A stretch of 31,922 bases of DNA from a virus: IMG/VR virus record IMGVR_UViG_3300044825_000722, positions 1-31,922 of that record; one strand, given 5' to 3'. Made by a program: the position numbers and the translations under genes. Positions 171 to 25,205 of this stretch are shown one piece after another. Under the pieces are notes generated by a model, which saw only the letters and a program-made list of their open reading frames with translations, did not search any database and had not been told where the DNA came from. How positions within the stretch are numbered: position 1 is the first letter of the stretch; each line of letters opens with the position of its first letter.

Positions 171-398
171 CTAGTCTACGCTCGGGAAAAGGCTTAGGGT
201 TGAAAGGTAGAAATCCAGCATCGCGGTTCTCCCCTTCTCCGTCACACGCCACAGCATTTCCTCCGCGTTGAACACCATGAACCCGGCTGCGTAAAGATTC
301 CCTTTCAGAGCGACAGCGGAAATGTCAGGCTGCGGGAAAGTACCCGTTGCGCTCACCTCTATCAGCGCGTCGTAGCCTGCCTGAGTCAGTTCGGTCAT
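171..398 (-). CDS. Hypothetical protein, 75 aa
   Basis: The start ATG lies in an ATGA overlap with the stop of the upstream gene (395-398), the usual coupling signal in this genome. The protein has an N-terminal part resembling a short helix-turn-strand (LTQAGYDALIEVSATG) and a central VTEKGRTAM stretch of the sort seen at the end of small winged-helix domains. I would not assign DNA binding on that alone. It sits in the last visible early operon with other short unknown proteins. Function unknown. Confidence 0.65.
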   Translation of the reverse strand: MTELTQAGYDALIEVSATGTFPQPDISAVALKGNLYAAGFMVFNAEEMLWRVTEKGRTAMLDFYLSTLSLFPSVD

Positions 399-607
399 GA
401 CTCGTCCATAATGAACGCAGCCAGTTCCAGAGCCTTAATCAGTTCAAGCACGTCCTCCCGGCTCAGATATTCGTGAGTCCACTCATACTTGAATTCACCG
501 ATCCTCTTGAACCTTTTCATGCCAATGGAAGCGGTTTCGCCTTGTAACACGCTGACAATGATCGGCTCCGCAAACTCCCCGTTAACCGTGATCTCAACGT
601 CGTTCAT
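395..607 (-). CDS. Hypothetical protein, 70 aa, downstream of a hammerhead ribozyme
   Basis: The ATG follows a strong GGAGGAATC ribosome binding site. The N-terminal half reads as beta strands (VEITVNGEFAEPIIVSVLQG), the C-terminal half as a helix (SREDVLELIKALELAAFIM). No known family is recognised. Its 5' leader is the 3' strand of hammerhead ribozyme 1, so its mRNA 5' end is probably made by self-cleavage about 50 nt upstream of the start codon. It is translationally coupled to the next gene through an ATGA overlap. Confidence 0.75.
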   Translation of the reverse strand: MNDVEITVNGEFAEPIIVSVLQGETASIGMKRFKRIGEFKYEWTHEYLSREDVLELIKALELAAFIMDES

Positions 608-626
608 GATTCCTCCTTTGTGGTCT

Positions 627-681
627 GCCTCATCAGTGCCGGGAGACTATTCCCGACAGACCCGCCGAAGCGGGTTTCGGC
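627..681 (-). ncRNA. Hammerhead ribozyme 1, type II (self-cleaving RNA)
   Basis: Read on the minus strand, the gap folds as a complete hammerhead. Stem II is GCC (681-679) with GGC (629-627). GAAA lies at 678-675. Stem III is CCCGC-UUCG-GCGGG (674-661), closed by the A675-U660 pair. The cleavage site is after C659. Stem I is UGUCGGGA (658-651) with UCCCGGCA (644-637), 8 pairs including one G-U, with a 6-nt loop. CUGAUGA lies at 636-630. All conserved core strands of the family are present in the order that defines type II (open at stem II). The element begins at the base right after the TGA stop of the upstream gene (682-684) and ends about 20 nt before the next start codon. Self-cleavage itself is inferred from the fold. 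Confidence 0.93.
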
Positions 682-888
682 TCAAATCGCATTAGCCAGA
701 GCAGCCGCATAACCATCCGAAGGAACCAGACCGTAGCGGACCGCGATACGGTTCAGAGCCTTTGTAGCCTGATCGGCCTGAGCAGTGTTTTTCGTCGCTG
801 CGTGTTCGTGGCGCGCCAGCACGATGAGCGCGTTATCAATCGCAATCAGATCGTCGCGGGTCAATTCGTTCAGTTCGTTGATGTTCAT
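682..888 (-). CDS. Hypothetical helical protein, 68 aa, between two ribozymes
   Basis: The ATG is preceded by AGGGAGGAAC, spaced 4-6 nt. The sequence is mostly helical (INELNELTRDDLIAIDNALIVLAR, then a second helix ending in ALNRIAVRYGL). No family is recognised. It is flanked on both sides by hammerhead ribozymes: one ends upstream in its leader and the other starts at the base after its TGA stop. If both cleave, this gene is released as a separate monocistronic RNA. Confidence 0.75.
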   Translation of the reverse strand: MNINELNELTRDDLIAIDNALIVLARHEHAATKNTAQADQATKALNRIAVRYGLVPSDGYAAALANAI

Positions 889-909
889 TTCAGTTCCTCC
901 CTGTCGCCT

Positions 910-962
910 GTCTCATCAGGTGCGGTAGGCGATCTCCGCACGACCCCCGAAGGGGTTTCGAC
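910..962 (-). ncRNA. Hammerhead ribozyme 2, type II (self-cleaving RNA)
   Basis: The fold on the minus strand matches ribozyme 1 with different bases in the stems. Stem II is GUC (962-960) with GAC (912-910). GAAA lies at 959-956. Stem III is CCCC-UUCG-GGGG (955-944), closed by the A956-U943 pair. The cleavage site is after C942. Stem I is GUGCGG (941-936) with CCGCAC (925-920), six perfect pairs, with a 10-nt loop. CUGAUGA lies at 919-913. Compared with ribozyme 1, the middle pair of stem II changes from C-G to U-A and the first pair of stem I from U-A to G-C, so pairing is kept while sequence changes. It starts right after the TAA stop at 963-965. Confidence 0.93.
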
Positions 963-1280
963 TTAGAAATGAGGATCGAGGTAATCCTTCGCGTACCCGA
1001 CCACGAGAGCGCCGTACCACTGCTTACGTCCCTCCCGCACGAGCAGGTACTCAACTCTTCCATTATGGCAGGTTGCCGGACGGAAAATCGTCGGACCATT
1101 CCAGTCATTTGCGCGAATGTGGATTTCCTTGATCTGACCCTTGCGAGTTCCGGACTTGTATCGGATCACTGCACTGACAGTCTCAGCGTATGAATCGCTC
1201 CCGGTGTAGAAGGTACAGGGATCGCCAGCCTTGATTTCCGCATCCGTGTAAACGCGGCGGGTTTCGGTCATCGTATTCAT
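963..1280 (-). CDS. Hypothetical protein, 105 aa, first gene of an early operon
   Basis: The ATG follows the strong leader AGGGGAGGAACCGAA, a leader type repeated before several genes here. The central part (GDPCTFYTGSDSYAETVSAVIRYKSGTRKGQIKEI) reads as a small beta barrel, compatible with an SH3-like or KOW-like fold, but this is only secondary-structure reasoning. It is the first gene after promoter region A, so it probably leads the operon that continues through the two ribozymes to the left edge. No known family is recognised. Confidence 0.75.
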   Translation of the reverse strand: MNTMTETRRVYTDAEIKAGDPCTFYTGSDSYAETVSAVIRYKSGTRKGQIKEIHIRANDWNGPTIFRPATCHNGRVEYLLVREGRKQWYGALVVGYAKDYLDPHF

Positions 1281-8222: not shown

Positions 8223-8447
8223 ATGAACATTCATCAGGCAACTGAACTGCTGAACGCTCTTGCCGCCAGCGAGAGCAAGGTTCAAATTTGGTTCCGCATA
8301 GATGGGATCAATGAGCCACAAGCACTAACTCGTGATGCTGCTCCACTCACCGCTGTTGACGCCTTGCAATCTGTCACGGCATGTCACAACGTCGCAGAAA
8401 ACTGCGGAAAGACTGTCACGTTCAGCATTTCCCGATTCGAAAACTAA
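8223..8447 (+). CDS. Hypothetical protein, 74 aa, rightward operon
   Basis: First of three genes on the plus strand, with a strong AGGGGAGGAGC ribosome binding site. It starts with a helix (IHQATELLNALAASES), then strands (VQIWFRIDG), and a second helix (AVDALQSVTACHNVAENCG). No family is recognised. Being divergent from the rest and behind its own promoter/operator suggests separate timing, for example immediate-early host takeover or control. The 15-base leader CACTAGGGGAGGAGC is repeated exactly before the next gene. Confidence 0.75.
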   Translation: MNIHQATELLNALAASESKVQIWFRIDGINEPQALTRDAAPLTAVDALQSVTACHNVAENCGKTVTFSISRFEN

Positions 8448-8474
8448 GCAGCAGGCACTAGGGGAGGAGCCGTG

Positions 8475-8654
8475 ATGAAAGCAACGATCATCAGCATCCG
8501 CAAGACCAAGGCTGCCGCTGAGCGCGAGTGCGCTTGGTACGCCTCAGCGGAACCGATGAACCAACGCGTCATCAAGCACAATGGCGTTTATCTCGTAGTT
8601 CGTGATTGGCACCCGTCTGATGCGGGACGTTCGTTCGATTCAATAGATCTATAA
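8475..8654 (+). CDS. Hypothetical protein, 59 aa, rightward operon
   Basis: The ATG at 8475 is 5-7 nt after GGGGAGGAG; the GTG just before it is too close. The protein begins with a strand (KATIISIRK), a helix (AAAERECAWYASAEP) and two strands (RVIKHNGVYLVVRDW), a compact alpha/beta layout. No family is known. It shares an identical 15-base leader with the gene upstream, which suggests either duplication of the leader or a conserved translation signal. Confidence 0.7.
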   Translation: MKATIISIRKTKAAAERECAWYASAEPMNQRVIKHNGVYLVVRDWHPSDAGRSFDSIDL

Positions 8655-8675
8655 AACACTGAGGAGGAACCCGAA

Positions 8676-8945
8676 ATGAACGCACGCGAATTCGTTTTAC
8701 AGCAAGCCAAGACGCTTCGTGAATACGGAAACGAAGTCACTATCAGAGACGAGGGAAATCGCATACACGTCTGGTCCGAATCAAAAGACACATGGGGAAC
8801 CAGTATCGGAATACGAGCATTTCGCAACGGCATTACTGGCCGCTGGAATTTCGCTGGCGCAAGTTTCTACACACGAGGTCAAAAAGATTTTGAGCGCAAA
8901 ACATACGCACGCGTTCGCACCGCCGTAATGATATACGGAAACTGA
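8676..8945 (+). CDS. Hypothetical protein, 89 aa, rightward operon
   Basis: Strong GAGGAGGAACCCGAA leader before the ATG. The sequence alternates charged helix (REFVLQQAKTLREYG) and strands (EVTIRDEGNRIHVWSES), then an arginine-rich second half (FERKTYARVRTAVMIYGN). No family is recognised; a small nucleic-acid-binding or inhibitory protein is possible. It is the last gene of the operon. An orphan GGAGGAAAC follows the stop without any start codon, just before the shared terminator. Confidence 0.72.
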   Translation: MNAREFVLQQAKTLREYGNEVTIRDEGNRIHVWSESKDTWGTSIGIRAFRNGITGRWNFAGASFYTRGQKDFERKTYARVRTAVMIYGN

Positions 8946-13281: not shown

Positions 13282-13793
13282 TACGGACCCACCTCAATCA
13301 GAACTAGAGTAGAACGGCTGCTGTCATGCTGTACAAGAGCACCAGTCGCATTAGCACCATTACGAAACTGTGTCTTGTAGGTTGTTGCGGAAGTTGTCGC
13401 AGGTTCGTCAAGTATCGCTGCGCCAATCGTTCCAACGCTGTTCTCGTCCGTTGTTCCGGTATAACCACCGACACCAAGAAATATCTGGGTTGCGCCACGC
13501 AACATCTGGACATACACGGCGCTACCAACATTGGACCCAACCTTGTAGCAGCCATTCTGCGCTAACAAGACAAGAATCTTGCTAGACGTGGACGCGGGTG
13601 TAATCGTCGCCGTCAAGCCAGTATCAGCGTAGACGTTTGTATTGTTCTGGGTCTGTGTTGCCGTGCTGCCGTACACCACTTGCAGCACCTTGCCGAAGCC
13701 AAGCGTCGGCAGCGTCAGCGAAACATCGCTACCTGTAGCGGGTGCGTCTATAGAGACGCTGCCGCTAGTAGTGCCATTAAGTTTCAGCGTCAT
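13281..13793 (-). CDS. Tail fibre-like protein, 170 aa
   Basis: Begins TLKLNGTTSGSVSIDAPATGSDVSLTLPT and continues GFGKVLQVVYG, a start shared by many short phage fibre proteins of aquatic phages. The rest is a beta-sandwich-like domain with T- and S-rich strands (TATITPASTSSKILVLLAQNG) and ends in DSSRSTLVLIEVGP. It follows the 129-residue gene with no gap and shares a TAATG overlap with the next fibre. Its partner fibres have similar N-termini, which probably mediate attachment to the baseplate. Confidence 0.8.
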   Translation of the reverse strand: MTLKLNGTTSGSVSIDAPATGSDVSLTLPTLGFGKVLQVVYGSTATQTQNNTNVYADTGLTATITPASTSSKILVLLAQNGCYKVGSNVGSAVYVQMLRGATQIFLGVGGYTGTTDENSVGTIGAAILDEPATTSATTYKTQFRNGANATGALVQHDSSRSTLVLIEVGP

Positions 13794-14183
13794 TTAAACC
13801 ACCGTCCAAGTGCTGCCGGAAGGAATCGTGACAGTCGCGGCGGTGCCGATGGTGATAGGACCCGCGCTCATCGCGTTATTACCCGAAGTAATGGTGTATG
13901 ACGTGGTGACTGTTTGATCGTTCTCATAAAAGATTTGATCAGTCCCACCACCCTTAGCACCAGCAGCAAACGGCACCCATCCTATCGCCGTACCGCCATA
14001 ATATTCAAGGGAATCAGTATCCGAAAGATAAGTAAACATGCCTTCCGACGGAGCAGCAATAGCCGACCCGCGTGCGGCAGTTCCAGCGAAAACCATCACA
14101 GTTTGCTGCATCAGGAACGTATCAACATCATCAGCAGTCAGGATTTCGCCAGCCGTGAAATCCTTAAACCCGGCACCTGCCAT
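13794..14183 (-). CDS. Tail fibre-like protein, 129 aa
   Basis: Starts GAGFKDFTAGEILTADDVDTFLMQQTVMVFAG and runs through SEGMFTYLSDTDSLEYYGGTAIGWVPF, a recurring attachment module in phages of aquatic bacteria and actinobacteria. The C-terminal half (ENDQTVTTSYTITSGNNAMSAGPITI...TVTIPSGSTWTVV) is a repeated-strand shaft found in fibres. A strong AGGGAAGGAAG site precedes the ATG. It is the first fibre after the distal tail protein and may be the adaptor on which the others dock. Confidence 0.8.
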   Translation of the reverse strand: MAGAGFKDFTAGEILTADDVDTFLMQQTVMVFAGTAARGSAIAAPSEGMFTYLSDTDSLEYYGGTAIGWVPFAAGAKGGGTDQIFYENDQTVTTSYTITSGNNAMSAGPITIGTAATVTIPSGSTWTVV

Positions 14184-14195
14184 TATCTTCCTTCC

Positions 14196-15452
14196 CTAGA
14201 AACCCAACGTGTTCTGATCCAAGACACCGAAAGTAGAAGAATCAAGAATCAGCGCACTCAACGCAAATGATAAACCGAACTCGATCCGGTGAGACGCCGG
14301 ACCAATACTGTGATCAATGCTCTCAATCACAGCCGCCTGGCGGATTTGACCACCCACATTATTCGGGGTGTACCGGACAGTGACAAGATCACCCAACTCC
14401 AAGTTGAGAACCGTGTTCTGCTGCTCCGTTGTCAAGCCTTGAAGGTTCACGCCAAGTTGGTTAAACCTGAGCCGTGGCACCCCGTACAAGGTGAGCAGCC
14501 AGTCCGCCAGTGACTCAGCCTCAGCAACACCATTCAACATGCTGTTATTTAAACTGTATGTGATGATGCCGTAGTCGTCCTGACTTGCTGTGAAATCAAC
14601 CGTCACATTATCGCCGGACAGGAGATCAATGTTCACGGAGTTCCGGACAAGTTCCGTCCCGTAAGCAACCTCAATAGCGTCAAATGGGACACCAGTTCCG
14701 TCGTCAGCGAAAATGGTGGACGTGGATCGTTGTAGTTCGCTGCGGTCACGGAACGTTAAAACGCCGGTTTTAGAGATGAAAAGGAACCCGGCCTCATTAT
14801 CTTCAACAGAACGCAAATATTCTAAAGCGTTTACTGGCTGCGGGTTGACAGTGCCACCGATAGCCTCACCGATGAAGTCTGACACGCCAGTCCCGATGCT
14901 GCGGCGAGCAGGAGACCAGCCGATTTCTGGCCGGTCAAGAATAGCGGTGATCCGCTGGCCGGATGTTTGAGGAACAGCAGTATGCGCCGAGATCGTTTGA
15001 CGCGCCAAAGTCGCCAAACCGTCCGCACTCTTAGCGACAGCCTCACTCATACCATCAAGTGAGTAAAGTAAATCCCAATCCTCAACTTGACCATTAAACT
15101 GTGCAGCGCCGTTACACAGGATTTGAACCTGTTTACGGGGGACAATCTGGCCGCTGTATGGGGAGACCGATGTTCCAGCCGTAGGGTCGAATGTGCGTGC
15201 GCGGTTATCTAGAACAATGGTGGCCGCGCCTGCATCCACGTTTTCTAGTTCCTGTGAACGTCCACGAGATATAGAAACACTGCGCACATATTGGGTTATA
15301 TCTTCAAGGAATTCACCAGCAAGCGGGTAAATACTCGTAACTGTGCCGCCGCTGAGAACACCTTTCGTAGGGTGATTCAAAGTGAAGAAGTTACCGGAAC
15401 CGCCAGCGGCAAGATCGAAAGCAATCTTGACTTGTGTGAGTGGCGTGTTCAT
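14196..15452 (-). CDS. Distal tail / minor tail protein, 418 aa
   Basis: Starts in an ATGA overlap with the tape measure stop. The first 200 residues (ITQYVRSVSISRGRSQELENVDAGAATIVLDNRARTFDP and IVPRKQVQILCNGAAQFNGQVEDWDL) are those of actinophage minor tail proteins that form the ring at the tail tip. The C-terminal part contains LNLELGDLVTVRYTP and a closing strand pattern. It probably plays the combined Dit/Tal-like role at the tip, holding the fibres encoded after it. Confidence 0.85.
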   Translation of the reverse strand: MNTPLTQVKIAFDLAAGGSGNFFTLNHPTKGVLSGGTVTSIYPLAGEFLEDITQYVRSVSISRGRSQELENVDAGAATIVLDNRARTFDPTAGTSVSPYSGQIVPRKQVQILCNGAAQFNGQVEDWDLLYSLDGMSEAVAKSADGLATLARQTISAHTAVPQTSGQRITAILDRPEIGWSPARRSIGTGVSDFIGEAIGGTVNPQPVNALEYLRSVEDNEAGFLFISKTGVLTFRDRSELQRSTSTIFADDGTGVPFDAIEVAYGTELVRNSVNIDLLSGDNVTVDFTASQDDYGIITYSLNNSMLNGVAEAESLADWLLTLYGVPRLRFNQLGVNLQGLTTEQQNTVLNLELGDLVTVRYTPNNVGGQIRQAAVIESIDHSIGPASHRIEFGLSFALSALILDSSTFGVLDQNTLGF

Positions 15453-18136
15453 GACCGGACCGTGATCGGGATTGCACCATTCCTACGCTCATACTGCTTC
15501 AACACGTCCACTACCTGACGGCCAACTTCCGCACCATCAGTACCCATACCGGCATTGACAGTCACATTTATCATGCTGCGTCCACCACTAGCCAGACGAT
15601 CAAGAGGAATAACGACCTCCGGACCAGCCTCACCTACCAGACCGATAGTAGGCTTAGTGACTAGACCGCCATCAGCGAACGGGTACGGTCCAAACATCAC
15701 ATCCAGATTCCGGCGCAAAGCGTCAATGTCTGGCATATCCTGAACCTGAGTCACCGGGATACCGCCACCGCCGACAGTGACAAAGAAACCATCACCGCCG
15801 GGAACCGACGGAGCAGCCGGAGCAGAAACAGCGGGACCTGATGGACGCGATGGGGTAGACACGTTCACGCGGCCATTGATGATGAATGAAAGTTCTGCCT
15901 CTAGTTCGTTAATAAGGTCGCGCATTTCCTTACGCGCCTTCGAACCCTTAGCCAGCGTCAACATGAACCCGCGAGCCATAGCAATAGCCGACCGGATACC
16001 AGCAGCCTCAAACGTCAACGCCGCTTCACGCGCAATCTCATTAGCGACATTGTTGTAATCCTCAACAGCCTTATTAGTGCTGTCAATCAACTCCTGCGTC
16101 TGACCACGGAAGTAGGCATCCACAACCTCAGTGCCACGCTCATAACCCAAATCCATAATCTGCTTCAACGTGGTCTTATTCAAACCACGCCGCATCAGGT
16201 CAAGCAGTTTCGCACCGAATTCCTTAAACCGGTCAGCCTGAGAAACGAATTCCTCCACGATCCCCTGAGCGCCAGTACGCGCAGCATCACGCGCCTTATT
16301 GTGAGCAGCCTGCAACTCGCCAAGAGTACGAATCTGCTCCTCAGTCGCCTCCTCCGTCAGATCACGCCGGTAATTCTCCAACTCAGTAAGCGTGTCAGTG
16401 ACAGCCTTCTGGCGCGCAGCGTAAGCCTCAGCAGCATTACCAATATTCAAGTAACCCGCGATGGTTGACTTGAAACTTTCCATCGTGTCACGCGATGCTT
16501 GCAGTGCTTCCGTGGCACGCTGACGCACATTATCGAATCGCTTTTGTTCTGATTCGGTGAGTTTGTCAATCTCCTCTTTTGCCTTCTTCGCGCCGCTACG
16601 CGTCTTTTCGTTTTCTTCCCTGATCCTCTTCAACGCGGCAGCAGTAAGATCAGCACCCTGCTCTAGACCCTGAGTGATAGCCGACGTGACAGTTCCGGAA
16701 GTTGTCCGCATGTCACTGAGAAGCCGACGAGATTCAACCGCCGCCATGAGAAGTTGCATGACGCTTTGCGCCGCAATCTCAGATTCCTCACCGATTTCCT
16801 GCGTAAGATCACGAACCGTTGGAAGAGTGTTTCCATATTCGATAGCCGCAGAAACCGTACCAGAAATGGCTGTGCTGAGACGCTCCTGAGCCATGTGGGA
16901 AAAACGATTGGTCGCAAGTAGGTAACGCGCCTCTGCCGTATATTGACCCGTGGAATCGCGCAGTTTATCTATAGACCTGCGGGTTCCCTCAGTCTCGTCA
17001 CGGAATCTCTCTTGCGCTGTGGCTGCCTGCTCCAAGTAGTAGATGAGAGCAGTAACACCAGCGATGGCCGCAGCGAATACCAGCAGCCGGGTAGACGCGG
17101 CGAGACGCGTCATCGCAGCAGACGCAAGATCAATAGCGCGAACCAAACCAAGCACAACGGTTTGATAAACACCCATCGTTGCGATGTTGATAAAAAGTGC
17201 TGTGCGCTTCAGCAGTAGCGCGGCAGTAAATGTGCCGACCGCGACAGCAGCAAACTTCAACGCCTCAGCATTATCACGAACGAACTGCGAGAATTCACGA
17301 ACCGTAGTGCTTAGATTCTTAAACGCCGGAGTCAGCATGTTAACCAGAGCCTCGATGAGAGGCATCAGCGCAAGACCGATATCCTCTTTAAGGTTGTCAA
17401 ACATGACAGAGAAACGCGCTGTGGCTGTCGTGGTCGCGGCAGCGACACCACCGACCTGCGACTCAACCTCTTGAAGGATCAACTGCTGAGCGCGGAGAAC
17501 CTCGCCACCCTCCATGAGGGTACGAATCTGATCCTTCTGCTGCTCACTGAAAGTCACGCCAGCACGCGACAAAGCCGTCATCCCACGGATGGGATCATTC
17601 AAAGCCTTGCCAAGCATCTTCGCCGCAGATTCAGCATCACCGAAACCGGCAGCCGCCAAATCCTGAGCAGCCATAACCGTGCGGTCAAAGATCGCCGCGA
17701 CACCCTCACCGACGTTCCGAATATTCTTAAACGTCAAAATCAGGTTAGCCGACTGTTGGATTAACTCGTCATCAACAGCAATCTGGTTACTGATCTTCTC
17801 CGACAAGTTAGCGACCTGATCGGCAGTGACCTGCGCCGCGCCACCAGTAGACTTGATAATCTGCGCCGTAGCCGCGTTAACCTTAATCGCTTCGTTAGCC
17901 TCAGCGACAGAATCCCGCAGCACATTCCCAAGAGCCTGAATCCCTTGGAAGCCGACACCGAAAGCGGCACCCAAAGCGATAGCACTTTTACCGATGTTCC
18001 GGAACGAAGTAGCGAAACCCCTATCAGCATCAGCAGCAACACCGGCCATCTGACCGATCTGCTTCTGCGCCTGCAAAAGTTTCTTATTATCCCAATCCGC
18101 AAGCAGCGAAACTAGGACAGCCGGGTTTCTAGCCAA
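15449..18136 (-). CDS. Tail tape measure protein
   Basis: 895 residues, TTG start with AGGAG 6 nt upstream, overlapping the gp10-like gene by 8 nt. Long helical protein with hydrophobic stretches near 293-333 and 350-367 and a helical middle (roughly 520-760). The end FADGGLVTKPTIGLVGEAGPEVVIPLDRL is a recurring motif of phage tape measures. At about 1.5 angstrom per residue it would set a tail of roughly 130 nm. It is made with the assembly chaperones encoded upstream and passes through the tail tube at injection. Confidence 0.95.
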   Translation of the reverse strand: MARNPAVLVSLLADWDNKKLLQAQKQIGQMAGVAADADRGFATSFRNIGKSAIALGAAFGVGFQGIQALGNVLRDSVAEANEAIKVNAATAQIIKSTGGAAQVTADQVANLSEKISNQIAVDDELIQQSANLILTFKNIRNVGEGVAAIFDRTVMAAQDLAAAGFGDAESAAKMLGKALNDPIRGMTALSRAGVTFSEQQKDQIRTLMEGGEVLRAQQLILQEVESQVGGVAAATTTATARFSVMFDNLKEDIGLALMPLIEALVNMLTPAFKNLSTTVREFSQFVRDNAEALKFAAVAVGTFTAALLLKRTALFINIATMGVYQTVVLGLVRAIDLASAAMTRLAASTRLLVFAAAIAGVTALIYYLEQAATAQERFRDETEGTRRSIDKLRDSTGQYTAEARYLLATNRFSHMAQERLSTAISGTVSAAIEYGNTLPTVRDLTQEIGEESEIAAQSVMQLLMAAVESRRLLSDMRTTSGTVTSAITQGLEQGADLTAAALKRIREENEKTRSGAKKAKEEIDKLTESEQKRFDNVRQRATEALQASRDTMESFKSTIAGYLNIGNAAEAYAARQKAVTDTLTELENYRRDLTEEATEEQIRTLGELQAAHNKARDAARTGAQGIVEEFVSQADRFKEFGAKLLDLMRRGLNKTTLKQIMDLGYERGTEVVDAYFRGQTQELIDSTNKAVEDYNNVANEIAREAALTFEAAGIRSAIAMARGFMLTLAKGSKARKEMRDLINELEAELSFIINGRVNVSTPSRPSGPAVSAPAAPSVPGGDGFFVTVGGGGIPVTQVQDMPDIDALRRNLDVMFGPYPFADGGLVTKPTIGLVGEAGPEVVIPLDRLASGGRSMINVTVNAGMGTDGAEVGRQVVDVLKQYERRNGAIPITVRS

Positions 18137-18683
18137 GTCCTGCTCCTAACCTTGCTTGCGCCACCTTCGCGGCATGATGAGCGACAGTCTCAATAGTTGT
18201 ACGCGCGTCACTAATGTTGAAATCCTCCGGCGAATCGTAGGCACCCCACACCAGACGAGACGCGCGACGGCCAGACTTAGAACGAATATTGTTCACGAAG
18301 CCGACACCGTTACCGTAAGTCCAACCCGTCTTAGGGTTGATCCCCGGACGAGGTGGCGCGCCATTTGTTTTACGGCCAGCCAACTCCCAAATGACACCCG
18401 CAGCCGTAGTGTTCTCCACACCCGCCACGTTCACGATGATGCCGCCACGCTTACGCCGCTTAGCCGTAGTCGTCTTGATACCGCCGCGAATAGTGCCGGG
18501 GTTGTAGCCGCCGCGCCAGCCACCCCAACCGGACAACCCTTCAGGGTCCACCATGCCGCGCGCCTCATTACGCAGCCGGTCAGCCTGACCCCTCAGCACC
18601 TTCAAAACGTCAAGCCGTAAATCGTTATCAAGGTCTTTCAACACGTCAAGCGTGTTACGGATACCCTTGATTTGGATTCCCAC
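18129..18683 (-). CDS. HK97 gp10-like protein (neck/tail component), 184 aa
   Basis: GTG start at 18683 with AGGGAG 4 nt upstream, 1 nt after the chaperone frameshift product's stop. The first 45 residues (IKGIRNTLDVLKDLDNDLRLDVLKVLRGQADRLRNEARGMVD) match the helical N-terminus of the HK97 gp10 family, and the rest is glycine-rich beta (GGIIVNVAGV). In most phages this gene lies between connector and tail terminator; here it sits between chaperones and tape measure. Assignment is moderate because the rest diverges. Confidence 0.6.
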   Translation of the reverse strand: MGIQIKGIRNTLDVLKDLDNDLRLDVLKVLRGQADRLRNEARGMVDPEGLSGWGGWRGGYNPGTIRGGIKTTTAKRRKRGGIIVNVAGVENTTAAGVIWELAGRKTNGAPPRPGINPKTGWTYGNGVGFVNNIRSKSGRRASRLVWGAYDSPEDFNISDARTTIETVAHHAAKVAQARLGAGLG

Positions 18684-23237: not shown

Positions 23238-24419
23238 CTAGGAAGCCGCGCCGATGTAATACTTGACCGCATCGGACTGACCGAGGTCACCCCAGATACG
23301 GATGGTCAGACGGAAGCCGATCTGATCGGATGCGAAGTACGCATCGTCAGAGCGCGCAACCTCAATGCCGCCAACCTGACGGACATGGTAGGAACCGAAC
23401 CAACCGAAGAGAACCGACTTAGCGGAAGTCGCAGTTGCAGCGATATCCGGATTCTCAACGATCTCAATTCCCATGAACGAGTCAGCCATCCCAGCAGTAG
23501 CAGCCGGAACGTAAAGGTACTGACCAGCAGAATCCTTCAACTTCCGGACAGTACCCATTGTGGAGCGACGCATCATGAAACGCGCACCCTGACGGACATA
23601 CGCACCATCAACGCTGTGTGCGAGATCAATCAGGTTATCCGCAGTCGGAGCGCCAGCAACACCAGTTCCACCAGTGACACCCGAACCAGCAGCAACCGAA
23701 ACCCCGTTGGGTTCGGTCGTACCCGTTCCAAGAGTCAAAAGGTTATTCACCTTAATACCGATGGACGTACCGAGAGTACGACCGAGGTAGGAAACAATGT
23801 CGATCCCTGAATCTTGAAGCAACTCACGGCTCACCTTCGTCAGAACCGCCACCTTCTCAGACTTCAGGGTCAGAGAAGTGAACGTCGGATCAAGAGCAGT
23901 GATCGTGGTTCCCTCAGCAATCGCGGTAGCCAGCGGACGAGACGACTCCACCGGAACCTTGATATCCTCGCCACTCGCGGTATTCAGGAGCGTAACAATC
24001 CCACCGTCCAGCATCGGACCGACAGTGACCAACTTCTCCTGAATAACATCGTAGAACGACTGAGGCACGACGGACGAATCATCCGAAGTATTCAGGTCAC
24101 GACGCTCGAACGTGTAGGAACGAACCTCACCCGACACGAGTTTGCGAATCATCTCATTGTCAGACGAACGGAAAGCAGCCTGCGCGCGAACCTCAGGAGC
24201 ATCCACCAGAGATGCCTCAATGTCCTTAGCGCGAGCCTCAGCCGCCTGAAGGTCACTAATCCGCTGCGAACGCGAATCAATATCCTCATTAATACGCGCG
24301 TACTGCGCCTCTTCCTCAGCGGTCAGGTCACGACCCTCAGCCGCCGCATGATCAAGGAGAGCCTTAGCAGCGTGCCACGCCTGCTGCCGCGCCTCTACCT
24401 GACGCTTCAAATACTCCAT
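23238..24419 (-). CDS. HK97-fold major capsid protein, 393 aa
   Basis: The first 75 residues are helical and charged (ARQQAWHAAKALLDHAAAEGRDLTAEEEAQYARINEDIDSRSQRISDLQ), the delta domain that acts as a built-in scaffold and is normally removed by the prohead protease. The fold follows (VVPQSFYDVIQEKLVTVGPMLDGGIVTLL, LTLKSEKVAVLTKVSRELLQDSGIDIVSYLG, GARFMMRRSTMGTVRKLKDSAGQYLY, VLFGWFGSYHVRQVGGIEVARSDDAYFASDQIGFRLTIRIWGDL), matching the phage_capsid family. AAAGGA lies 8-9 nt before the ATG. Confidence 0.96.
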   Translation of the reverse strand: MEYLKRQVEARQQAWHAAKALLDHAAAEGRDLTAEEEAQYARINEDIDSRSQRISDLQAAEARAKDIEASLVDAPEVRAQAAFRSSDNEMIRKLVSGEVRSYTFERRDLNTSDDSSVVPQSFYDVIQEKLVTVGPMLDGGIVTLLNTASGEDIKVPVESSRPLATAIAEGTTITALDPTFTSLTLKSEKVAVLTKVSRELLQDSGIDIVSYLGRTLGTSIGIKVNNLLTLGTGTTEPNGVSVAAGSGVTGGTGVAGAPTADNLIDLAHSVDGAYVRQGARFMMRRSTMGTVRKLKDSAGQYLYVPAATAGMADSFMGIEIVENPDIAATATSAKSVLFGWFGSYHVRQVGGIEVARSDDAYFASDQIGFRLTIRIWGDLGQSDAVKYYIGAAS

Positions 24420-24452
24420 TTGAGTATTCCTTTCGAGTAGGTTTGATTTATT

Positions 24453-24502
24453 ACGGGTCCGCAGCGGCTCCGCTTGCGGGGATCAAGTCGCGGCTCCGCG
24501 AC
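24453..24502 (-). promoter_or_regulatory. Two hairpins between prohead protease and capsid genes
   Basis: GTCGCG-GCTC-CGCGAC (24487-24502) is a perfect 6-bp stem, and 24458-24479 forms an 8-bp stem with one bulge; both share GGCTCCGC. They lie just after the protease stop and before the capsid leader. No T run follows, so processing or mRNA stability is more likely than termination. Confidence 0.5.
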
Positions 24503-24509
24503 AAGAAAA

Positions 24510-25205
24510 CTAGAAAGCCTTCGCCAAAAGTTCCATCTGCTTCTGTAGAACGCTCAGCGGAATCTGAGGCTCAGCGTCAACCGTCTTACCGGTCATCCGG
24601 TCCACCACGGTCCTAAGCACGTTCGCCTGATCGTCGGTCAGTTCCCCAGCCTGTAGAGCGTTCATCGCGTCCGTGAGTTCCTGCACATCCATGTCGGTAC
24701 GGTGTGCGATAGTTTTCAGGTTCCGCACTGATGCTGTAGTTGAAGGGTACGCGGGAACGCCGCTGACCACAGAGACCTCATGCAGACGCACTTCCTTCAA
24801 TGTGCGCTCATTACCGTCAGCACTCCACTCATCCTTAACAGTGGAGAAACCGAAACTCATCCCGGTAATATCGCCACGACGAATGTGATACGCGACCGAC
24901 CTTCCGAGTTCGGTATCAGGTAGATCAATCTCCACATACCCACCCTCCGGACGGTCCTCAATCCGCAGAGTCTTAGCGCGAGACGAACCAAGAAGCAGTT
25001 CATCGTTATGGTTGTAATAGGCACGCACGTCATTCCGTGACTTCAAAGTCCGGGTGAAGGCTCCGGGAGCGATACGCTCCGTAAACGGCAGCGGCAAACT
25101 CGGCTCCATGTACCGCCAAGCGAAACCACCGAAACGCATCCCATCCGGCGCGTCACCAACCGCGCGGATTTCAGCGTCAATAGTGCGAACCTCAACCGAA
25201 CCCAT
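24510..25205 (-). CDS. Internal-start product: prohead protease alone, 231 aa
   Basis: Inside the polyprotein gene, codon 392 is an ATG preceded by GAAAGGAAAGAA, a ribosome binding site as strong as that of the major capsid gene (GAAAGGAATACTCAA). Initiation here gives a 231-residue protein starting MGSVEVRTIDAEIRAV that contains the whole protease domain and helical tail, the normal length for free HK97-type proteases. The long and short products would share the same C-terminus, as in other nested protease/scaffold genes. It is inferred from the site strength and domain border. Confidence 0.65.
   Translation of the reverse strand: MGSVEVRTIDAEIRAVGDAPDGMRFGGFAWRYMEPSLPLPFTERIAPGAFTRTLKSRNDVRAYYNHNDELLLGSSRAKTLRIEDRPEGGYVEIDLPDTELGRSVAYHIRRGDITGMSFGFSTVKDEWSADGNERTLKEVRLHEVSVVSGVPAYPSTTASVRNLKTIAHRTDMDVQELTDAMNALQAGELTDDQANVLRTVVDRMTGKTVDAEPQIPLSVLQKQMELLAKAF

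Follow-up and report, generated by a model that had tools for sequence, protein, structure and literature searches.

The stretch of DNA analyzed here, called the window below, is the full length (31,922 nucleotides) of IMG/VR virus record IMGVR_UViG_3300044825_000722, a linear 31.9-kb virus contig that may extend past position 1. Three small genes encoding proteins of 105, 68, and 70 amino acids follow one another on its minus strand, and each of the two gaps between them holds a sequence with the conserved core of a type II hammerhead ribozyme (Table 1). One of these elements, HHR-1, precedes the 70-aa gene, and HHR-2 occupies the next gap upstream, which separates the end of the 105-aa gene (963) from the start of the 68-aa gene (888). 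Both ribozymes start right after the preceding stop codon, and the next ribosome-binding site lies within ~10 bases. Position 682, which falls inside the Rfam match to HHR-1, is the final base of the upstream stop codon.

Table 1. Positions of the two hammerheads, their parts, and the adjoining genes in the window.
Feature	Position	Strand	Basis or remark
105-aa gene upstream of HHR-2	963..1280	minus	stop TAA 965-963 abuts stem II
HHR-2, second type II hammerhead	902..963	minus	RF02276 34.9 bits, E 0.0013, just under gathering cutoff 37
HHR-2 predicted cleavage site C942/G941	941..942	minus	from core
HHR-2 pseudoknot tail AGGCGA	904..909	minus	complementary to UCGCCU 932-927, 6 bp
Shine-Dalgarno GGGAGG of gene 888-682	896..901	minus	sequence
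Predicted 283-nt RNA freed by both cuts	659..941	minus	arithmetic from the two predicted cleavage sites
68-aa gene between HHR-1 and HHR-2	682..888	minus	stop TGA 684-682
HHR-1, type II hammerhead ribozyme	619..682	minus	RF02276 full match, 59.6 bits; MFE fold
HHR-1 stem II, GCC pairing with GGC	681-679, 629-627	minus	sequence
HHR-1 core GAAA	678-675	minus	sequence, MFE fold
HHR-1 core GAA(A) and stem III	660..678	minus	A675-U660 plus CCCGC(UUCG)GCGGG; sequence, MFE fold
HHR-1 predicted cleavage site 659/658	658..659	minus	C659 (position 17) / U658; inferred from hammerhead core
HHR-1 stem I	637..658	minus	658-651/644-637, 8 pairs including one U-G, loop AUAGUC; sequence, MFE
HHR-1 CUGAUGA and stem II 3′ strand GGC	627..636	minus	CUGAUGA 636-630, GGC 629-627; sequence
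HHR-1 pseudoknot tail AGAC	623..626	minus	complementary to GUCU 647-644, stem I loop; sequence
Shine-Dalgarno GGAGG of gene 607-395	612..616	minus	sequence
70-aa gene downstream of HHR-1	395..607	minus	

The 68-aa protein and its neighbors have no PHROG match at E ≤ 0.01, the proteins encoded at 682-888 and 963-1280 have no relatives among viral contigs, and the first 3.2 kb of the window has no blastn match to named phages. Genes for replication initiation, SSB, and WhiB are located farther upstream on the same strand, which makes it plausible that the hammerheads belong to an early or middle operon of an actinobacterial phage. The initial annotation, which spoke of an actinophage early operon, is credible to this extent, although the host is not proven; a capsid search for a host genome matched one uncultured bin. 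Elsewhere in the window, three small plus-strand open frames (8223-8945), each preceded by a sequence resembling a ribosome-binding site, depart from the minus-strand orientation of the other genes inspected, and one of these frames (8472-8654) matches DNA of contig L049 at 75% identity.

The initial annotation had placed a complete type II hammerhead in the gap occupied by HHR-1 and proposed that it be scored with the corresponding Rfam covariance model. HHR-1 scores 59.6 bits with that model (RF02276, Hammerhead_II; gathering cutoff 37; E = 4.2e-10 for the whole window), and every hammerhead element that had been listed is found in the sequence where it was placed, in type II order on the minus strand. 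The gap was likewise described correctly, with the TGA at 684-682 immediately 5′ and the Shine-Dalgarno sequence GGAGG at 616-612 downstream. Stem III consists of the A675-U660 closing pair and five base pairs capped by UUCG at 669-666. Minimum-energy folding yields precisely the three-stem hammerhead, in the order II(open)-III-I, with stems I and III closed by loops. The position of hammerhead cleavage relative to the core is established biochemistry, and the core of HHR-1 places the predicted cut after base 659, as had been suggested. Both the loop I/3′-tail pseudoknot and the second hammerhead at 963-902 had been overlooked. The pseudoknot helix of HHR-1 is short (4 bp) and has one base in common with the last stem I pair.

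HHR-2 lies just below the Rfam gathering cutoff, and of its close relatives, the copy on contig L006 scores 37.7 bits, above that cutoff, and the copy on L049 scores 35.0. Its score with model R1 is higher (68.2 bits), partly in a circular manner because HHR-2 belongs to the training set of that model. The core is perfect, with all core nucleotides present. The stem order is again II(open)-III-I, though the nested minimum-energy fold draws in the pseudoknot tail and thereby departs from this arrangement. The pseudoknot sequences differ between the two copies while the pairing is kept (GUCU:AGAC in HHR-1, UCGCCU:AGGCGA in HHR-2), and CUGAUGA, GAAA, the A-U closing pair, and C17 occur in both. 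A descriptor of this core is found twice in the window, versus 0.01 occurrences expected from dinucleotide shuffles. No further ribozymes were detected in the window by Rfam at E ≤ 10 or by model R1.

A pattern scan of IMG/VR DNA returned at least 119 stretches, and a covariance model was built from 69 of them. Among these 69 relatives, 89.7% of cells are paired (65.8% when shuffled, at most 44% when slid), and the covariation score is 0.528 (0.124 shuffled, at most 0.10 slid). Stem I is paired in 97% of cells and stem II in 96%, with changes on both sides of all six stem I pairs and of two of the three stem II pairs. The pseudoknot helix also covaries across relatives, but only 59% of its aligned cells pair. 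Because the invariance of the core stems in part from the fixed search pattern, only the stems count as evidence here. A covariance-model search then yielded at least 231 distinct hammerhead copies in ~80 selected loci. Although related genomes are not independent samples in these counts, 221 of 228 evaluable copies have an open frame of 35 aa or more no farther than 80 nt upstream, an upstream stop codon lies at -10 to +4 nt of the ribozyme in 163 of the 228 (null 6%), and a start codon with a Shine-Dalgarno sequence follows in 215 of 226 (null 32%). Where a locus has two or more copies (41 loci, 198 copies), every copy is on the same strand as the others of its locus, at a median spacing of 658 nt. 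Thus, the presence of a type II hammerhead in a phage operon is supported by Rfam score, fold, covariation in relatives, and placement.

It could be argued that such elements are not catalytic but serve as hairpin spacers, transcription terminators, or protectors of mRNA 3′ ends. Stem III does form a hairpin, rich in GC and capped by UUCG, just past the stop codon, in keeping with this explanation. However, all core nucleotides are intact in both HHR-1 and HHR-2, no U-tract follows stem III, and terminators placed in the majority of gaps would shut off an operon's distal genes, which together make a non-catalytic role highly improbable. A regulated switch, in which cleavage, or a ligand controlling cleavage, unmasks the downstream ribosome-binding site, is also very unlikely. 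The predicted probability that the Shine-Dalgarno sequence is unpaired does rise from 0.29 to 0.65 after cleavage of HHR-1, but it is constant for HHR-2 (0.45 before and after), and the median change over 190 copies is 0.001 (Wilcoxon P = 0.19), such that unmasking as a general outcome of cleavage is not supported. Furthermore, no extra conserved domain resembling an aptamer was seen, and the minimal ribozyme fills the gaps.

Hammerheads of this type also reside in cultured phages. Salutena and Triumph, two Streptomyces phages, emerged from a blastn query with HHR-2, and searches of whole genomes found 12 hammerheads in Salutena, 10 each in Triumph, Alvy, and Thestral, nine each in Omar, Caelum, and Diane, and seven or eight in the classic phage R4. 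The same whole-genome search found none in phiCAM, Joe, Endor1, Sujidade, phiC31, or Arthrobacter phage SilentRX. Every copy in Salutena is located in the leftward early operon and none in the structural operon, and of the 14 gaps in this early operon that reach 50 nt, 11 are ribozymes. The announcement of the Salutena genome makes no mention of ribozymes. In R4, three tiny annotated genes, gp60.1, gp67.1, and gp75.1 (L154 11763-11846, 14126-14218, and 17074-17175), overlie hammerheads on the same strand and are probably mis-annotations. A link between the hammerheads and the inhibition of phages by aminoglycosides was considered and dropped; all S. coelicolor phages tested in the relevant study were reported to be insensitive (PMC9239200).

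The early-operon gaps of phage Endor1 (Camvirus), which lacks hammerheads, are similarly wide and contain a different repeated element. This tRNA-like minihelix consists of an acceptor-like stem of 5 bp, a linker of 11 nt, and a T-arm of 6 bp whose loop is of the TTCGAGT type, and the linker carries an invariant GG flanked by a covarying pair, which mimics a D-loop. When 29 copies from Joe, Endor1, phiCAM, and Sujidade are aligned, pairing is seen in 99.4% of cells, compared with 75% when shuffled and at most 55% when slid. No Rfam match to the element was found when the Endor1 region was searched. Model R2 detects nine copies in Endor1, 10 in phiCAM, eight in Joe, and seven in Sujidade, and none in eight hammerhead-bearing relatives. 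These loci are intergenic on the minus strand of early operons (13475-18614 in Endor1, locus L155; L183 in Joe, L185 in phiCAM, and L184 in Sujidade), and at least 120 IMG/VR stretches match the minihelix pattern. A recurring TGTGACAGTGTGAG-like sequence is present at 13770-13831 and 16031-16087 of Endor1 and in neighboring gaps, including some that have no minihelix. In phiCAM, a tRNA-Arg called by ARAGORN at L185 8922-9004 overlaps a minihelix and is likely a false call.

The sets of genomes with hammerheads and with minihelices do not overlap among 12 Arquatrovirinae (Fisher P = 0.002; these genomes are related and not independent). Neither element is found in phiC31 or SilentRX. At orthologous junctions, one element can stand in place of the other. 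A family of ~48-aa genes has a hammerhead on its 5′ side in Salutena, Triumph, and R4 and a minihelix there in Endor1, Joe, and Sujidade; in the family of an OCR-like antirestriction gene, the same three hammerhead phages again carry the ribozyme, and Sujidade carries a minihelix; and in a third family, the ribozyme is found in Salutena and the minihelix in Endor1, Joe, and Sujidade. A weak minihelix (39.5 bits) 5′ of the Endor1 acetyltransferase gene was included manually, since the annotation lists no gene upstream of it. Among 19 shared families, four have both elements, one has only the hammerhead, three have only the minihelix, and 11 have neither (Fisher P = 0.04, with the hand-added Endor1 case included). 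Mixed arrays occur as well: on the plus strand of phage contig L248 (7438-10517), a single type II hammerhead precedes six minihelices of the same orientation, and in L198, one minihelix accompanies two hammerheads.

An alternative is that the ribozymes matter mainly as DNA. Conserved linkers at gene boundaries could offer homology for recombination of gene cassettes, with RNA cleavage being secondary, or the blocks could spread selfishly. HHR-2 is 96.9% identical to a copy on contig L049 (locus L169) whose two flanking genes are both unrelated, and this is far above the identity of unrelated hammerhead pairs (median 64.5%, 99th percentile 79%). It is also 81.5% identical to a copy on contig L006 (L170), which lies between homologs of the window's protease and capsid genes. 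Thus, the ribozyme-bearing gap occurs in different gene contexts. That copy (L006 3951-4012, plus strand) is part of a structural operon, and the corresponding gap of the window (24419-24510) has no ribozyme. Furthermore, identity of at least 80% is found for 33% of hammerhead pairs when only the downstream gene is shared versus 8% when only the upstream gene is shared. This bias is strong for pairs but is not significant at the level of gene families (seven versus six families, P = 0.18), and we therefore keep it only as a hint. Moreover, compensatory changes preserve the RNA fold while altering the DNA, which is needless for a pure linker, and an unrelated RNA element occupies orthologous junctions in sister phages. 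A role primarily as DNA linkers consequently seems unlikely.

The reading we prefer, and hold to be very probable, is that two self-cleaving type II hammerheads divide one polycistronic phage transcript between small genes. From their sequence, structure, covariation, placement, and recurrence, which are directly observed, we infer cleavage in vivo and a benefit from it. Hammerhead cleavage requires only RNA and Mg2+. Each hammerhead would fold during transcription, with the loop I/3′-tail pseudoknot holding the active shape, and would cut once, at 659/658 or 942/941, such that the transcript is divided at gene boundaries. Each upstream mRNA would then end in a UUCG-capped hairpin, and each downstream mRNA would start with a 5′-OH at the stem I hairpin, followed by its own ribosome-binding site. 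For the predicted RNA spanning 941-659, which contains only the 68-aa gene (888-682), the ends would be the 5′-OH stem I hairpin and the stem III UUCG hairpin with a 2′,3′-cyclic phosphate. The likely benefit would be separate control, for each gene, over mRNA ends, stability, and translation context, comparable to that provided by the engineered RiboJ insulator. On the other hand, 5′-OH ends may destabilize rather than protect mRNAs, as reported for glmS in B. subtilis. RiboJ hammerheads show ~90% cleavage in E. coli, and the uncleaved mRNA has been modeled as decaying faster (PMC7536230). By analogy, protection of ends and insulation of each gene's leader are likely roles for the phage elements. 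Hammerheads arranged in tandem in bacterial genomes have been tested in vitro, and a set from A. tumefaciens self-cleaves in E. coli (PMC3088659).

The interchange with the minihelix extends this proposal. RNase P processes polycistronic mRNAs and phage RNAs (review PMC11143913), and the resemblance of the minihelix to acceptor/T-arm substrates makes it a putative RNase P site. Unrelated elements such as these would share the ability to give a cut, and therefore the swap favors cleavage over ligand sensing, DNA recombination, or spacing and suggests that the shared function is the cutting of mRNA at gene boundaries. We consider it somewhat probable that hammerheads and minihelices (as putative sites for host RNase P) are interchangeable mRNA-cutting modules, either of which may stand at given gene boundaries in related phages, with up to a dozen per operon dividing the early transcript into mRNAs of one or a few genes. 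The pair in the window would be one instance. Because phiC31 and SilentRX have neither element, such cutting is not essential to phages.

The reason for phage hammerheads has been an open question since 2011 (PMC3088659), and a later paper still describes their association with particular genes as unexplained (PMC10085705). The arrays in cultured R4, Triumph, and Salutena, with seven to 12 early-operon copies in phages that grow on cultured Streptomyces, form a natural comparison with phages of the hammerhead-free sister genera Camvirus and Likavirus, which carry minihelices at some of the same junctions, and this comparison makes the 2011 question of purpose experimentally testable. If confirmed, the proposal would mean that certain phages divide their own transcripts one gene at a time and that a ribozyme and a signal for a host enzyme can replace each other in this process.

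Several known systems resemble the elements described here. The glmS ribozyme is likewise a self-cleaving RNA in a bacterial mRNA leader, but it has an unrelated fold, depends on a ligand, and serves a single gene. RiboJ insulators (Lou et al. 2012, as cited in PMC7536230) also place a hammerhead just 5′ of the ribosome-binding site and define the mRNA 5′ end, but they are engineered, whereas the hammerheads of the window occur naturally, belong to type II, and number more than one per transcript. The minihelix of Camvirus and Likavirus phages shares its acceptor stem, T-arm, and GG-containing D-loop mimic with tRNA-like RNase P substrates (PMC11143913), although it has no anticodon arm and recurs seven to 10 times per genome in the phages counted. 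Unlike the elements of the window, it is not a ribozyme, and it is absent from the window. Among open-license PMC papers, we found none on hammerheads in cultured Streptomyces phages, and within the openly licensed literature, the dense arrays in these phages and the tRNA-like element in their place seem to be new.

The closest precedent is that of Perreault et al. 2011 (PMC3088659), who reported prophages in which single genes or short runs of genes are flanked by multiple hammerheads, which may cut long transcripts into single-gene mRNAs. The initial annotation's view that hammerheads were undescribed as spacers between small actinophage genes thus does not hold as a general claim. The same study described the pseudoknot class of type II hammerheads, in which the pseudoknot is common but not universal, and two copies with 283 nt between their predicted cleavage sites around gene 888-682 constitute a gene-flanking cluster as defined there. 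The pair in the window matches the type II hammerheads of phages and prophages (RF02276) in core, permutation, pseudoknot, tandem placement around single genes, and proposed transcript cutting. What differs is the setting, in that the window holds two copies in a contig with actinophage-type genes (WhiB, SSB, Rep), and the arrays of its relatives reach seven to 12 copies that fill most early-operon gaps of cultured Streptomyces phages.
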